Positions 13,162 to 53,269 of a stretch of DNA of 64,000 nt are shown here, one piece after another. Numbering within the stretch: the stretch's first letter is position 1; the number at the start of each line of letters is the position of its first letter. Position numbers and translations under genes: made by a program. The stretch is from Streptomyces niveus (lineage in GTDB: Bacteria; Actinomycetota; Actinomycetes; Streptomycetales; Streptomycetaceae): NCBI RefSeq assembly GCF_001723055.1, contig NZ_MDCR01000036.1:1-64000 (forward strand), read 5' to 3'. The notes beneath the pieces were generated by a model that was not told where the DNA came from, searched no databases, and saw only the letters and a program-made list of their open reading frames with translations.

Positions 13162-15480
13162 TCACGTCTGCGCCATGTCCACGAAGCGTGAGTAGTGGCC
13201 CTGGAACGCCACCGTGATCGTCGCCGTCGGGCCGTTACGGTGCTTCGCCACGATCAGGTCCGCCTCGCCCGCGCGTGGGGACTCCTTCTCGTACGCGTCC
13301 TCCCGGTGCAGCAGCACGACCATGTCCGCGTCCTGCTCGATGGAGCCCGACTCACGCAGGTCGGAGACCATCGGCTTCTTGTCCGTGCGCTGCTCGGGGC
13401 CACGGTTCAGCTGGGAGAGCGCGATGACCGGCAGCTCCAGCTCCTTGGCCAGCAGCTTGAGGTTTCGCGACATGTCCGAGACCTCTTGCTGGCGGCTCTC
13501 CGCGCGCTTGGAACCGCCGGACTGCATCAGCTGGAGATAGTCGATGACCACCAGCTTCAGCCCGTTGCGCTGCTTGAGCCGGCGGCACTTCGCGCGGATC
13601 TCCATCATCGACAGGTTCGGCGAGTCGTCGATGTACAGCGGCGCCTGCGAGACGTCCGGCATCCGGCGGGCCAGCCGCGTCCAGTCCTCGTCCGTCATCG
13701 TGCCCGAACGCATGTGGTGCAGCGCCACCCGTGCCTCGGCCGAGAGCAGGCGCATCGCGATCTCGTTGCGCCCCATCTCCAGCGAGAAGATGACGCTCGG
13801 CAGGTTGTTCTTGATGGAGGCCGCGCGCGCGAAGTCCAGTGCGAGCGTGCTGTTGTGAGTGGGGATCATGGAACGGGTCGCCAGATACAGGTGCGCGGAG
13901 TTGTCCACCTGGACGCAGCGGACCGGGACGCTCTCGACCTCCCGGACCTCCGTGATGAAACGCCGCGTCGGCTCCGGTGTCGCCGGACCGCACCGCTCCC
14001 GCAGCGTCTGCTGCTTGCGGTCCAGCCGGAACGCCTCGTCGGCGGTCGTGAAACTGATCCCGTAGGACGTGGACGACTCCTGCGACCGTCCTTCGACGCG
14101 CTCGGTCGACATCCCGCACCGGTACCCGAGGCTCAGTACCAACTCGCGGACGCCCTCGGCCAGGGCTCGGTTGGTGACGGTGAACCGCACCGCCCCCGTG
14201 CCGGTCACCGTGCCGTGCGTGTCGAGCAGCCCGGCGAGGAGCGCCCTGCGCTGCGCGAGGGAAGCCCGCAGATACTCCCGGGGGATTTCGCCGTCCGCGT
14301 CGCCGGCCGCCTCGCCGAGCCGGGCGCCCAGCGTGTACGGCGGGACGGGCAGATCGCGCTCGGGCAGATCGAGCGGTGCGGTTGTCGTCACGGAGTGGTT
14401 CGCGCGCCCGTCGTCCGTGACGCAGCGGACCGTTTCGGCGATCTCCTTGGTGGTCTTGACCGAGGCCGGGGAGTCGCGGGTGTCCGTGAGCCACTGGTGC
14501 TCGGCGTCGGCGACGACGCTCGACCCGTCGTCGAAAGTGATCTCGTAGCAGGGGCGGTCACGCATGATGTCGGTCGCGGCAACCACCCGCGTCGGCCGCC
14601 CGGTCGCGTCGAGGAGCAGGTCGCCCGGTCGTACCTCCCCCATGGTGGTCCAGCCGGTGGGAGTGGGCAGCGGGGTGTCCAGGGCAAGCGCCTTGCCCAT
14701 GGCGGGACGGGCCGCGATGACGATCATCTGGCCGGGGTGCAGCCCGTTCGTGAGCGAGTCGAAGTCCGTGAACCCCGTCGGCACACCCGTCATCTCGCCG
14801 CTGCGTGAACCGATCGCCTCGATCTCGTCGAGCGCGCCCTCCATGATGTCGCCCAGCGGCAGATAGTCCTCGCTGGTGCGCTGCTCGGTGACCGCGTAGA
14901 TCTCGGCCTGGGCGGAGTTGACGATCTCGTCGACGTCACCGTCCGCCGCGTATCCCATCTGCGTGATCTTCGTGCCGGCCTCGACGAGACGGCGGAGCAC
15001 CGCGCGCTCGTGCACGATCTCCGCGTAGTACGACGCGTTCGCCGCCGTCGGCACGGACTGGACCAGCGTGTGCAGATACGACGCTCCGCCGACGCGGGTG
15101 ATCTCACCGCGCTTGGTCAGCTCCGCGGCCACCGTGATGGGGTCGGCCGGCTCGCCCTTCGCGTACAGGTCGAGGATCGCCTGGAAGACCGTCTCGTGCG
15201 CGGGCCGGTAGAAGTCGTGGCCCTTGATGATCTCCACGACGTCGGCGATGGCGTCCTTGGAGAGCAGCATGCCGCCGAGCACGGACTGTTCGGCGTCCAG
15301 ATCCTGGGGCGGCACTCGCTCGAAGCCGGTTGATCCGCCGTCCCACGCGGCGTTGTCCCTGCCGCGCTCGTGCTGCTCCTCGCGGCCTCTTCCCTCACCG
15401 CGGCGCTGGCGGGAGACGGGCAGACGATCGCTCGGACCGGCCTCGGTCCAGGGGTCGTCCAACGGCTCGGGAATGCTCAC
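13162..15480 (-). CDS. dnaB: Replicative DNA helicase DnaB, intein-containing
   Basis: A 772-residue precursor that would splice to a 492-residue hexameric DnaB helicase, the normal Streptomyces length. The N-terminal primase-interaction domain spans about residues 57-160 (PQDLDAEQSVLGGML). The RecA-like ATPase domain begins near 230, with Walker A read as ARPAMGK-S once the intein is removed. Walker B is VVIDYLQLM, and later motifs include SQLNRGPE and DLRESGSIEQDADM. The intein occupies 264-543. Start GTG 15480 follows a strong GGAGGAGG and matches the conserved SIPEPLDDPW N-terminus; 23 codons further upstream are not conserved. A cluster of DnaA boxes lies 150-240 bp upstream, suggesting control by DnaA. 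A palindromic terminator follows. Confidence 0.97.
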   Translation of the reverse strand: MSIPEPLDDPWTEAGPSDRLPVSRQRRGEGRGREEQHERGRDNAAWDGGSTGFERVPPQDLDAEQSVLGGMLLSKDAIADVVEIIKGHDFYRPAHETVFQAILDLYAKGEPADPITVAAELTKRGEITRVGGASYLHTLVQSVPTAANASYYAEIVHERAVLRRLVEAGTKITQMGYAADGDVDEIVNSAQAEIYAVTEQRTSEDYLPLGDIMEGALDEIEAIGSRSGEMTGVPTGFTDFDSLTNGLHPGQMIVIAARPAMGKALALDTPLPTPTGWTTMGEVRPGDLLLDATGRPTRVVAATDIMRDRPCYEITFDDGSSVVADAEHQWLTDTRDSPASVKTTKEIAETVRCVTDDGRANHSVTTTAPLDLPERDLPVPPYTLGARLGEAAGDADGEIPREYLRASLAQRRALLAGLLDTHGTVTGTGAVRFTVTNRALAEGVRELVLSLGYRCGMSTERVEGRSQESSTSYGISFTTADEAFRLDRKQQTLRERCGPATPEPTRRFITEVREVESVPVRCVQVDNSAHLYLATRSMIPTHNSTLALDFARAASIKNNLPSVIFSLEMGRNEIAMRLLSAEARVALHHMRSGTMTDEDWTRLARRMPDVSQAPLYIDDSPNLSMMEIRAKCRRLKQRNGLKLVVIDYLQLMQSGGSKRAESRQQEVSDMSRNLKLLAKELELPVIALSQLNRGPEQRTDKKPMVSDLRESGSIEQDADMVVLLHREDAYEKESPRAGEADLIVAKHRNGPTATITVAFQGHYSRFVDMAQT
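13852..14691 (-). mobile_element. DnaB intein, Ala1 (class 3 type), degenerate homing endonuclease
   Basis: In-frame 280-residue insertion between Lys263 and Ser544 of the precursor, exactly inside the P-loop GK|S. It starts with ALALDTPLPTPTGW, so residue 1 is Ala, not Cys/Ser, and ends in THN followed by Ser as +1 extein residue. Three residues mark the class 3 mechanism: Trp67 two positions after the block B histidine (AEHQW), Cys259 in block F (VRCVQV) and Thr278 just before the terminal His-Asn. A LAGLIDADG endonuclease region lies at about residues 118-190. Its motifs read LGARLGEAAGD and LLAGLLDTHG, with the first catalytic Asp changed and the second Asp replaced by His, so homing activity is probably lost. 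Splicing is still expected, because DnaB is essential. Confidence 0.92.
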
Positions 15481-15627
15481 CGGCCACCTCCTCCCGTCCG
15501 CCAGGCGGACCTCGCCGTGCCACTCTTTTCTACGGCACGACACTGACAAATCGAGTGGCCTGACTCCGGTTGCGGCGCGTCGGACGTCGGTCCACGGTAG
15601 GCCCGCGGGGACCGTCCGCCAATCTGG

Positions 15628-15716
15628 TTATCCACAGGCCATGTGGACGAAAGACCATATGCTGTGGAGAACTCCGTCGATCCTGTGCACGGACCGGGGG
15701 ACAGCACTGTGGACAA
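15628..15716. other. DnaA-box cluster upstream of dnaB
   Basis: The 423 bp between dnaB and the MATE gene hold TTATCCACA (15628-15636, perfect), TGTGGACGA (15642-15650), TGTGGAGAA (15663-15671) and TGTGGACAA (15708-15716, a perfect reverse-strand box). TGTGGGGGA occurs near 15771. The cluster lies upstream of the dnaB start and could regulate dnaB or titrate DnaA. The rest of this interval contains the MATE promoter and no gene that I can support. Confidence 0.7.
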
Positions 15717-49362: not shown

Positions 49363-51207
49363 GTGGCTGACGTACCTGCCGATCTTGCCGCAGTGTGGCC
49401 GCGAGTGCTGGAGCAGCTCCTCAGGGAGGGCCAGCAGGGCGTCGAGCCCAAGGACAAACAGTGGATCGAGCGCTGCCAGCCACTCGCGCTGGTGGCTGAC
49501 ACCGCGCTGCTGGCCGTGCCCAACGAGTGGGGCAAGCGGGTGCTCGAGGGCCGCCTCGCCCCGCTCATCAGCGAGACCCTGAGCCACGAGTGCGGGCGCC
49601 CGATCCGTATCGCCATCACGGTCGACGACTCGGCCGGTGAACCCGTACCGCCGCTGCCCCAGCAGAGCCGCTACCAGAACTCCCAGCACGACGACGGACG
49701 TGACGGTCGTGACGGACGCGACTCACGTGATCTCCGTGACAGCCGTGATTCCCGTCACGACGACCCGCGGCCGGACGACTCCCGGCACGACGACATGCGC
49801 CCCGACGGCGGCTACCACCCCTACGGCCGCCGCCCCTCCGACGACGACTCCATGCCGACGGCCCGCCCCGCCTACCCGGACTACCAGCAGCAGCGCCCCG
49901 ACCCGGGCGCCTGGCCCCGGACGCAGGAGGACCTGTCCTGGCAGCAGCAGCGGCTCGGCGGCTTCCAGGACCGTGACCCGTACGCGACCGCGCGACCGCA
50001 GCAGCCGCAGCACGACTACCGGCCGCCGCAGCCGCAGGAGAGCCGGCCCTACGATCAGCAGCAGCGCCCCGAGCGGCACGACCTGGACCCGCAGCAGTCG
50101 CGGCACGGCGGCCGGGGCGGGGCGACCGGACCGCTCGGCGCGCAGGCATCGCCGCCGCCGGGACCCGGTGAGCACCACGCGCGGCTCAACCCCAAGTACC
50201 TCTTCGACACCTTCGTCATCGGGGCGTCCAACCGGTTCGCGCACGCGGCGGCCGTCGCCGTCGCGGAGGCGCCGGCCAAGGCGTACAACCCGCTCTTCAT
50301 CTACGGCGAGTCCGGGCTCGGCAAGACGCACCTGCTGCACGCCATCGGCCATTACGCGCGCAGCCTCTATCCCGGCACCCGGGTGCGGTACGTGAGCTCG
50401 GAGGAGTTCACGAACGAGTTCATCAACTCGATCCGCGACGGCAAGGGCGACACCTTCCGCAAGCGCTACCGGGACGTCGACATCCTGCTGGTCGACGACA
50501 TCCAGTTCCTGGCGAGCAAGGAGTCGACGCAGGAGGAGTTCTTCCACACCTTCAACACGCTGCACAACGCGAACAAGCAGATCGTGCTGTCCTCGGACCG
50601 GCCGCCCAAGCAGCTGATCACCCTGGAGGACCGGCTGCGCAACCGCTTCGAGTGGGGCCTGACCACCGACGTACAGCCGCCGGAGCTGGAGACGCGAATC
50701 GCGATCCTCCGTAAGAAGGCCGTGCAGGAGCAGCTGAACGCGCCGCCCGAGGTGCTGGAGTTCATCGCCTCGCGGATCTCGCGCAACATCCGTGAGCTGG
50801 AGGGCGCGCTGATCCGGGTCACGGCGTTCGCCTCGCTCAACCGGCAGCCGGTGGACCTCGGGCTGACCGAGATCGTGCTCAAGGACCTCATCCCCGGCGG
50901 CGAGGACTCGGCCCCCGAGATCACCGCCGGCGCCATCATGGCGGCGACGGCGGACTACTTCGGGCTGACCGTGGAGGATCTGTGCGGTTCGTCGCGCAGC
51001 CGGGTGCTGGTGACGGCGCGCCAGATCGCGATGTACCTCTGCCGTGAGCTGACGGATCTGTCGCTGCCCAAGATCGGTGCCCAGTTCGGCAACCGGGACC
51101 ATACGACGGTGATGCACGCGGACCGGAAGATCCGCGCGCTGATGGCCGAGCGGCGCTCGATCTACAACCAGGTCACCGAACTCACCAACCGCATCAAGAA
51201 CGGCTGA
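49363..51207 (+). CDS. dnaA: Chromosomal replication initiator DnaA
   Basis: A 614-residue DnaA. Domain I spans about residues 1-90. The large, disordered domain II (about 95-275) is rich in Asp/Arg/His and Gln/Pro, and the enlarged domain II is characteristic of Streptomyces. The AAA+ domain III (about 280-500) has Walker A GESGLGKT (about 315-322) and Walker [10 protein letters not shown]. Domain IV carries the DnaA-box helix-turn-helix, with [17 protein letters not shown] and [15 protein letters not shown] 49363 is the start. The gene is followed by a terminator and then oriC. Confidence 0.98.
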
Positions 51208-51248
51208 CCGGTTCGCGGACCCGTCCGCGACCGGCTTCAGGACGCCTC

Positions 51249-51281
51249 AGGGCGCTTCGGGACACCGTCCCGGGGCGCCCT
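51249..51281 (+). terminator. Terminator of dnaA
   Basis: A 15-bp stem (51249-51263 with 51267-51281, two G-U pairs) with a three-base loop, 42 bp past the dnaA stop. It shields oriC from dnaA transcription. Confidence 0.75.
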
Positions 51282-51388
51282 TCGTCATGCCCGGCTCATG
51301 TCCGGCTCACGTCGGGCGGGTCATCGGGCATGGCGCGGCGCGTGACGCACCCTCAACCGCTGTTCGAATACGGGGTGTCGAGGGCCGC

Positions 51389-51961
51389 TTCTCCACAGAA
51401 AGCGGTCCGATCTCCCGTCCACACCCTGGGGATCGATAAGTTGTCCAGACTGCGTCCACAGGCGGGCCGACCGGATGTGGATCATGCCAGGTCAGACCCC
51501 TGGGGATTTGTGGCCAACTTTCCTCCACAGCCTGTGGACAGTTTTCTTGCCCACAGGCACGCGCTCGGGTTGTCCACCGGCGGCCCACAGGAGACGGCCC
51601 GTTGCCCACAGCTTCGGTCCGCTTCTCCACATCGCTGTCCACTGTTCGGCAACGAAACACGGCTGTTCACCGTGTCGAGTGAAAGGCGTCACATCGAGGT
51701 TGCCCAGGACCCTGTGGGGAACAGCGGAAAAGCTGGGGACGAGCCTGGGGAGAAGTAGGGGTGCCCTGTGCACCGCCTGTGCAGAACTTTCGGCTGTCCA
51801 CAGAGCGACGGGGTTGTCCACTGTCGGCGCCCACAGGGCCGGTGGACAAAAAAGTGGGCTTGACCTGCGAAAACAACGTTATCCACGGAATCCACAGGCC
51901 CTACTACTACTAACACCTGGAGTTACCTGGGAATCTGCTTCGAAGTGGGTGCTGTGCACAA
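51389..51961. other. oriC: oriC: chromosomal replication origin
   Basis: The 931 bp between dnaA and dnaN hold an array of about 20 DnaA-box-like nonamers, and no gene. Forward (TTGTCCACA-like): 51389, 51441, 51547, 51570, 51602, 51623, 51635, 51794, 51814, 51879 and 51888. Reverse (TGTGGACAA-like): 51476, 51509, 51533, 51713, 51841 and 51953. Weaker copies lie at 51415, 51452, 51521 and 51700. The only A+T-rich stretch is 51847-51882, next to a CTA repeat at 51901. This is the standard Streptomyces oriC layout. Confidence 0.97.
51901..51912. other. DnaA-trio-like repeat in oriC
   Basis: Four consecutive CTA triplets, read on the opposite strand as 3'-GAT-5' four times. They begin four bases (GGCC) after the DnaA box at 51888-51896. 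Box, short G+C spacer, then trio repeats is the architecture of the B. subtilis basal unwinding system. Confidence 0.65.
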
Positions 51962-52138
51962 CTCGGCGCCGGACCGGCCCCGGCCGCTTGTCGCGACTTG
52001 ACCCCGAGCAGCACCGAGTGTCGGTGCCGTACGTCAGACTGGTCCCCGGCAACCTCACCCTGCCCATGGCGGAGTGAGCTCATGCCGACGACGAAGAAGG
52101 CCGGCAGGGCGAGTCAGCAACAGCAGGAGGCGGTTCCG

Positions 52139-53269
52139 GTGAAGATCCGGGTGGAGCGCGATGTACTGGCGGAGGCGGTGGCCTGGGTGGCCCGTAGCCT
52201 CCCGGCCCGTCCGCCGGCGCCCGTTCTTGCGGGCCTTCTGCTGAAGGCCGAGGAAGGCGCGCTCAGCTTCTCCAGCTTCGACTACGAGGTCTCGGCCAAG
52301 GTCTCGGTGGACGCCGAGGTCGAGGAGGACGGCACCGTCCTCGTCTCCGGCCGGCTCCTCGCCGACATCTGCCGCGCCCTCCCCAACCGGCCGGTGGAGA
52401 TTTCCACAGACGGTGTACGGGCGACGGTGGTCTGCGGCTCCTCGCGGTTCACGCTGCACACACTGCCTGTGGACGAGTACCCGGCACTGCCGCAGATGCC
52501 GACCGCCACCGGCACGGTGCCCGGTGAGGTCTTCGCCTCCGCCGCCGCCCAGGTGGCCATCGCCGCGGGCCGTGACGACACGCTCCCGGTGCTCACCGGC
52601 GTACGGATCGAGATCGAGGGCGACACGGTCACCCTGGCCTCGACCGACCGCTACCGCTTCGCCGTCCGTGACTTCCTGTGGAAGCCGGAGGTCTCGGACA
52701 TCTCCGCGGTCGCCCTGGTGCCCGCCAAGACGCTGCTGGACACCGCCAAGGCCCTCACGAGCGGTGACACGGTCACCCTGGCGCTCTCGGGCTCCGGTGC
52801 GGGCGAGGGGCTGATCGGTTTCGAGGGCGCCGGGCGCCGGACGACCACGCGGCTCCTGGAGGGCGACCTCCCGAAGTACCGGACGCTGTTCCCGACGGAG
52901 TTCAACTCGGTCGCGGTGATCGAGACCGCGCCGTTCGTCGAGGCCGTCAAGCGCGTGGCGCTGGTCGCCGAGCGCAACACCCCGGTGCGGCTCAGCTTCG
53001 AGCAGGGCGTGCTCATCCTCGAAGCCGGTTCCAGTGACGACGCACAGGCTGTGGAGCGGGTCGACGCGAAGCTCGACGGCGACGACATCTCGATCGCCTT
53101 CAACCCGACGTTCCTGCTCGACGGTCTGAGCGCCATCGACTCGCCCGTCGCGCAGCTCTCCTTCACGACCTCCACCAAGCCCGCGCTCCTCAGTGGGAAG
53201 CCGGCGCTGGATGCCGAGGCCGACGACGCGTACAAGTACCTGATCATGCCCGTGCGGCTGTCGGGCTGA
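52139..53269 (+). CDS. dnaN: DNA polymerase III beta sliding clamp
   Basis: A 376-residue beta clamp made of three similar domains of about 120 residues. It starts KIRVERDVLAEAVAWVARSLP and ends in the conserved MPVRLSG. The dimer ring tethers polymerase III and is bound by many replication and repair proteins. GTG 52139 is placed 8 bp after AGGAGG and matches the family length; ATG 52083 would add 19 unconserved residues. It lies directly downstream of oriC. Confidence 0.98.
   Translation: MKIRVERDVLAEAVAWVARSLPARPPAPVLAGLLLKAEEGALSFSSFDYEVSAKVSVDAEVEEDGTVLVSGRLLADICRALPNRPVEISTDGVRATVVCGSSRFTLHTLPVDEYPALPQMPTATGTVPGEVFASAAAQVAIAAGRDDTLPVLTGVRIEIEGDTVTLASTDRYRFAVRDFLWKPEVSDISAVALVPAKTLLDTAKALTSGDTVTLALSGSGAGEGLIGFEGAGRRTTTRLLEGDLPKYRTLFPTEFNSVAVIETAPFVEAVKRVALVAERNTPVRLSFEQGVLILEAGSSDDAQAVERVDAKLDGDDISIAFNPTFLLDGLSAIDSPVAQLSFTTSTKPALLSGKPALDAEADDAYKYLIMPVRLSG

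Follow-up and report, generated by a model that had tools for sequence, protein, structure and literature searches.

The 64,000-nucleotide stretch of DNA analysed here (the window) carries, between its dnaA and dnaN genes, an element that is probably the Basal Unwinding System (BUS) of the Streptomyces chromosome origin; we put the probability of this reading at roughly 0.87. It is based on the sequence and its conservation within the genus, on a low predicted duplex stability, and on the residues of the encoded DnaA. The original prediction had described four CTA triplets that begin four bases past a DnaA box, behind a GGCC spacer, and had likened them to the DnaA trios of Bacillus subtilis. 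This layout is borne out by the sequence (51888-51912), and its order, orientation, spacing, and triplet identity agree with the published BUS layout, which supports the trio-like reading. The features are as follows.

49363-51207, plus strand: dnaA initiator gene (open reading frame and alignment to a chain of 8btg)
51208-52138: oriC, the dnaA-dnaN gap; 931 bp, 65% G+C, numerous DnaA-box-like 9-mers
51847-51882: A+T-rich stretch (58% A+T) with a reverse box on one side and the BUS boxes on the other; probably auxiliary
51879-51887, plus strand: upstream DnaA box TTATCCACG; 1 mismatch to TTATCCACA
51888-51896, plus strand: downstream, weaker DnaA box GAATCCACA; 2 mismatches to TTATCCACA; abuts the upstream box (9-bp spacing)
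51897-51900: G+C spacer GGCC, directly 3' of the second box
51901-51909, minus strand: three invariant candidate DnaA trios; CTA CTA CTA on the top strand, 3'-GAT-GAT-GAT-5' on the minus (trio) strand
51910-51912, minus strand: candidate fourth trio, variable within the genus; CTA in this window
51901-51930: lowest predicted stability of any 30-mer in the gap, shared with 51900-51929; the DNA that would open first
52139-53269, plus strand: dnaN sliding clamp, a DnaN-like frame; alternative in-frame upstream ATG at 52082

Read directly from the sequence, the four CTA triplets form CTACTACTACTA at 51901-51912 and are followed by ACACCTGG. The window agrees with the rule given in the available text of PMC8287927, namely a DnaA box, a spacer of at most 16 bp, and at least three 3'-NAN-5' trios. 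TTATCCACG departs once from TTATCCACA, where up to two mismatches are allowed. The second, co-oriented box, which may carry up to four mismatches and lie within 3 bp, is GAATCCACA with two mismatches at a distance of 0 bp. The first trio begins 13 bp from box 1, the more conserved one, and 4 bp from box 2, and at least three consecutive 3'-NAN-5' trios are present as four copies of 3'-GAT-5'. A length of 13 bp is also the commonest box-to-trio length in the same source (PMC8287927).

A separate group of four DnaA-box-like sites lies within 90 bp at 15628-15716 and consists of TTATCCACA and three reverse 9-mers, one of them an exact TTGTCCACA. It precedes a dnaB-like helicase gene (13162-15549, minus strand) which, from a reading of its translation, seems to have an intein in the P-loop. 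This cluster could serve DnaA control of dnaB or act as a titration site.

Conservation in Streptomyces and spread beyond the genus

We sampled 101 Streptomyces genomes that were picked through the C-terminal domain of DnaA, blind to the motif. Five of 105 initial entries were excluded (G021, whose contig stops just after dnaA; G039, which is not Streptomyces; and three loci of extra DnaA-like proteins), and the 100 origins counted comprise 72 from dnaA-centred loci and 28 from motif-centred loci that also contain the dnaA end. Conservation across the genus had been named as a check on the original prediction, which passed it: TCCACA-N3-CCTACTACTA is present in 100 of 100 origins, and TCCACA and CCTACTACTA are identical in all 72 stretches that are not motif-centred. 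CCTACTACTA is a run of ten bases; no longer invariant run occurs among the 275 columns that we examined, which include 52 invariant columns in total.

Other parts of the element vary. The upstream box is TTATCCACG in 62 of the 100 origins and TTATCCACC in 18. The spacer is GGCC in 65, GCCC in 17, GGGC in 11, AGCC in 5, and another sequence in 2, with its last C kept in all 100. At the fourth triplet we found CTC (34), CGA (19), CTA (18), CCC (12), CTG (11), AGA (3), CCT (2), and CCA (1), i.e., a middle base on the trio strand of A in 63, C in 22, G in 15, and T in none. The predicted number of four CTAs is correct for this window, but not as a conserved number: three are found in every origin and four in only 18. 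This pattern, with three constant trios and a variable next one, fits B. subtilis, for which a set of three was considered the least that supports origin activity (PMC8287927).

With our first pattern, the element had appeared to be lost in 8 of 37 Streptomyces. Seven of these cases proved to be spacer variants, and in the eighth, G021, CTACTACTAC is present on a contig other than that of dnaA. A 19-mer pattern occurs in 30 of the 31 Streptomyces of a class sample, the exception (G550) having CTA CTA CTG at the trio position. Backward patterns, run as controls, gave matches in 7 of the 61 genomes of the first scan and in 1 of the 296 of the class sample. The 4.2-kb distance between dnaA and the BUS in G010 was rejected as an insertion; the stored sequence contains a long run of N.

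Two further stretches, CTGTGCACAAC (51952-51962, including a weak reverse box) and GTGGACAAAA (51842-51851), are likewise strongly conserved over the 100 Streptomyces. Additional proteins with a DnaA C-terminal domain occur in 2 of the 101 genomes (G093, at L120 and L121, and G016, at L119), and the 1.4 kb behind their genes contains no BUS-like match.

These data bear on whether the triplets could be a repeat that arose by chance, given that perfect fourfold triplet repeats begin at seven positions of the 64 kb. The array adjoins a DnaA box, and three consecutive CTAs, expected 0.002 times per gap from independent bases, appeared in none of 8000 gaps of 931 bp in a first-order simulation. On both strands of the window they are confined to the BUS array, and a 22-mer with the box core and four CTAs is single copy in the 8.28-Mb assembly. 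Because three CTAs are conserved in all 100 origins, a chance repeat is refuted, and we assign it a negligible probability. A search of 72,556 plasmid records gave a single match, with 25% query coverage and outside the BUS.

Across the class sample as a whole, 58 of the 296 genomes and 10 of the 105 genera contain the 19-mer pattern. A scan of named genomes for the 16-mer TCCACAGGCCCTACTA gave at least 118 stretches, with 80 loci among the matches listed; the 16-mer is identical in these loci by construction, and its genomic position is independent of the selection. Using the DnaA and DnaN of the window as probes, we found that TCCACAGGCCCTACTA adjoins dnaA and/or dnaN in 74 of the 80 loci among the matches listed (73 co-oriented), while 6 have neither neighbour. 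By their record titles, these 74 loci include Bacillota, Cyanobacteria, Acidobacteria, a Myxococcales MAG, and a Trueperaceae MAG. An extra box-like 9-mer (at least 7/9) lies 7-13 bp upstream of the 16-mer in 76 of the 80 listed loci. At L242, a Bacillota MAG, dnaA-like and dnaN-like matches flank the core, which lies on the other strand.

Tandem-box spacing is 9 bp in all 38 loci that we grouped as Streptomycetaceae among the matches listed (L182-L261; L258, titled Streptosporangium, was assigned on the basis of its DnaA), whereas 16 of the 24 Bacillota loci among the matches listed have 8 bp. Of the 94 other actinobacterial pairs, for which only 8-10 bp was permitted, 78 also have 9 bp. The difference from most of the Bacillota loci counts against the BUS reading in that it suggests a placement of the two DnaA molecules somewhat unlike that in Bacillus.

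A different reason for the conservation would be a promoter or leader element of dnaN that has nothing to do with opening. The element is indeed closer to dnaN than to dnaA and precedes the DnaN-like frame at 52139 by ~240 bp, and the promoter scan that we used covers Streptomyces promoters poorly. That scan gave no sigma-70-type promoter-like site between 51200 and 52200, a region that also lacks an Rfam match at gathering score, and the box-spacer-CTA core recurs by dnaA/dnaN in several phyla (loci among the matches listed). We therefore regard a dnaN element as very unlikely. Promoter, terminator, and RNA-element candidates were rejected, with none located at the trios; the one terminator-like match, at 51524-51538, is within chance.

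Duplex stability and the DnaA protein

The neighbouring stretch at 51847-51882 had been described in the original prediction as the most A+T-rich of the origin. By base count this is so, as one of three tied 36-mers (58% A+T, compared with 56% for 51901-51936), but not by nearest-neighbour energy. Among all 20-, 30-, and 50-mers of the gap, the lowest stability belongs to 51901-51920, 51901-51930, and 51901-51950; for the 20-mer and the 30-mer, a start at 51900 gives an equal value. Of the positions sampled in the 64 kb, 0.13%, 0.09%, and 0.14% are less stable than these trio 20-, 30-, and 50-mers, respectively. In the 100 Streptomyces origins, the least stable 30-mer of the gap lies at the trio start in 74, in the upstream A+T stretch in 5, downstream in 1, and elsewhere in 20. 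Hence, the trios, and not the A+T-rich stretch, are the predicted weak point in most of these G+C-rich origins.

A reading in which opening begins in 51847-51882 as an E. coli-like unwinding element, with the CTA repeats merely stabilising or extending the opening, has to be weighed here. Besides its base composition, that stretch holds or overlaps the conserved GGACAAAA (51844-51851; the C at 51847 less so) and contains the conserved TGACCTG (51861-51867; the C at 51864 less so). It is nevertheless the more stable of the two, at -1.363 kcal/mol per step compared with -1.274 for 51901-51930, and on stability it was rejected as first choice. It also sits between boxes, and unwinding elements are never found amid the box cluster according to the available text of PMC4285127, a rule that is not clean for the trios either, since a weak reverse box follows them at 51953-51961. 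Long A+T-rich repeats that flank a box cluster, as in an E. coli-type element, were not found in the gap, in which the richest 36-mers are 58% A+T and lie between boxes; behind the trios, 51913-51950 is 53% G+C and forms no long A+T-rich tract. Overall, we consider an opening in the A+T-rich stretch improbable.

The DnaA protein of the window is in keeping with a BUS at the trios. We aligned it to the B. subtilis DnaA chain of 8btg, without gaps over the region of interest, and found that E183, N187, I190, I193, R202, K222, E223, E228, and R264 are kept, while N196 is changed to G. Nine of ten residues reported to matter for trio opening, through ssDNA contact or as arginine finger, are thus retained, and none of the ten positions varies among the 30 Streptomyces DnaAs aligned. 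In B. subtilis, the guanine is contacted by Arg202 and Glu228, the amino group of the middle adenine by Asn187, and the backbone just ahead of the first trio by Lys222 and Glu223 (PMC10721633). N196, the residue that differs, contacts the third trio base in B. subtilis, and its change counts against the BUS reading.

By analogy with B. subtilis, the order of binding, the capture of bases, the choice of strand, and the start of opening at this site can be proposed. DnaA would bind the two tandem boxes as duplex DNA, and the box-bound DnaA would set its AAA+ domains over the GGCC spacer. An ATP-DnaA oligomer would then extend on the minus strand in the 3' to 5' direction, with one protomer for each 3'-GAT-5', and capture the first two bases of every triplet, so that the strands would part at and beyond 51901. 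If the BUS reading is true, permanganate or P1 footprints of DnaA-oriC are expected to show reactive T in CTACTACTA.

The near-invariant three-trio element offers an exact candidate for the opening site in Streptomyces oriC. DnaA trios were reportedly defined in a 2016 paper. Within the literature searched, part of it available only as partial text, we found no Streptomyces BUS, no natural middle-C code, and no paper that places the opening site of Streptomyces oriC; Streptomyces is named nowhere in the text of PMC8287927, and may appear in its supplementary tables or in the 2016 trio paper. Streptomyces oriC has the most boxes among the origins reviewed in PMC4285127, with 19 in S. coelicolor.

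Middle bases of the trios in other Actinomycetota

Outside Streptomyces, many Actinomycetota likely use a relaxed trio code, 3'-G(A/C)T-5', in which the middle base read by Asn187 would be either A or C, each with the right amino group, in arrays of about five trios placed 4 bp behind tandem boxes. We compared 159 origins from 65 families, made up of the best 30 of two locus lists and 100 that we picked from those lists. The anchors were passed by 104 origins (boxes, spacer, and first triplet), 85 (boxes only), and 94 (variable spacing); origins that failed them were left uncounted and may be without the element or have another form. The trio register may err in single loci, for example in family f25, where the spacing is often 8.

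Many of these origins retain the boxes and the 4-bp spacer, and their top-strand triplets are often CGA or TGA, i.e., with a middle C on the trio strand. A strict middle-A scan gave few good elements in other families, and the frequent middle C seen in the wider comparison explains this. In a tally of 45 families, anchored on boxes, spacer, and first triplet and using the best-scoring origin of each, the middle base of trios 2-5 on the trio strand is A in 73, C in 77, G in 22, and T in 8 of 180 cases, which corresponds to 2.05, 1.51, 0.40, and 0.21 times background, respectively. Position 1 is G in 106 and position 3 is T in 141 of the 180, and the pattern fades past the fifth triplet. The variable fourth trio of Streptomyces shows a comparable latitude at its middle base. 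At equivalent positions behind 159 other TCCACA sites of the same gaps, values are close to background. The middle-C count rises weakly with the G+C content of the gap (Spearman 0.37, p 0.013, 45 families; given the relatedness of the families, p-values serve as a guide only).

With the boxes-only anchor (n=85), the first three trios all have a middle A in 22 origins and all have A or C in 59. Among the controls, A or C in all three was seen at 28 of the 212 other TCCACA sites and, under a laxer anchor, in 8 of the 72 reversed gaps. When the third base is fixed as well, A-or-C trios occur in 45 of 85 origins versus 3 of 212 other TCCACA sites. Allowing a box spacing of 8-10 bp, we found a tandem pair in 94 of 159 origins; three middle-A trios with a fixed third base come next in 28 of these origins and 12 of 43 families, and three A-or-C trios in 58 origins and 32 families. 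Controls for variable spacing gave 1 pair and no trios in reversed gaps, and 12 pairs with 1 trio match in reverse complements.

Asn187 is kept in 88 of 90 DnaAs (one has R and one lies outside the alignment). Other residues vary outside Streptomyces. At position 202, 20 of the 30 DnaAs from the class and 27 of the 30 from the phylum have Q or K, a change that the relaxed-code model does not account for; no link of residue 202 to trio type was found in the 59 loci readable for both.

Past the trios, by ~15-20 bases, we observed alternating purine- or pyrimidine-rich tracts, e.g., at L019, L041, and L314. They read AGAGAGAG or AGAGTTAG in Streptomyces and ATCTCTCTCT in some other families.

A review states that the middle trio base must be A. 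The available text of the BUS survey only suspects deviant trios (PMC8287927), and in B. subtilis C can substitute for A, with wider codes being raised (PMC10721633). The A-or-C pattern in sister lineages touches a question that is open in print and provides natural variation for testing the base-capture model. If true, a relaxed code would be the deviant trio that was suspected, not shown, in PMC8287927; G+C-rich origins could remain G+C-rich at the opening site, and trio searches that require a middle A would overlook many origins.

Comparison with known unwinding systems

An annotated case among Actinomycetota is Kocuria rhizophila, whose oriC, as in the window, lies between dnaA and dnaN and has an unwinding element and DnaA-trio motifs annotated, in one genome and as annotation only (PMC12500396). 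A BUS is predicted for 1755 of the 2070 species surveyed in PMC8287927. Set against the rule of that survey, many other Actinomycetota origins in our sample are without three middle-A trios behind tandem boxes.

In Thermotoga maritima, three tandem TAG triplets are essential for unwinding (PMC10316083). Like the window, this eTrio has three tandem 5'-TAG-3' on the bound strand; unlike the window, it is not directly behind a box, an earlier-annotated trio intervening. That trio, annotated beside the box, is only supportive, which counts against our reading (PMC10316083). The element opened in clostridia lies downstream of the trio (PMC7561715), where the window has no long A+T-rich tract, and for E. 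coli a need for trios is described as not known (PMC6727663).

A further close counterpart is the BUS of B. subtilis, on which biochemistry and cryo-EM are available (PMC6669920, PMC8287927, and PMC10721633). Streptomyces has three constant trios as opposed to six in B. subtilis, and the window is without an A+T tract behind them. The 16-mer core also occurs in Bacillus loci L228 and L260, both selected by that 16-mer, and the boxes are 8 bp apart in these two loci (which are not B. subtilis oriC itself) as opposed to 9 bp in the window. In B. subtilis oriC, DnaA boxes #6 and #7, a G+C spacer, and six trios follow one another in the same order and on the same strand as in the window, with the same 3'-GAT-5' triplets.
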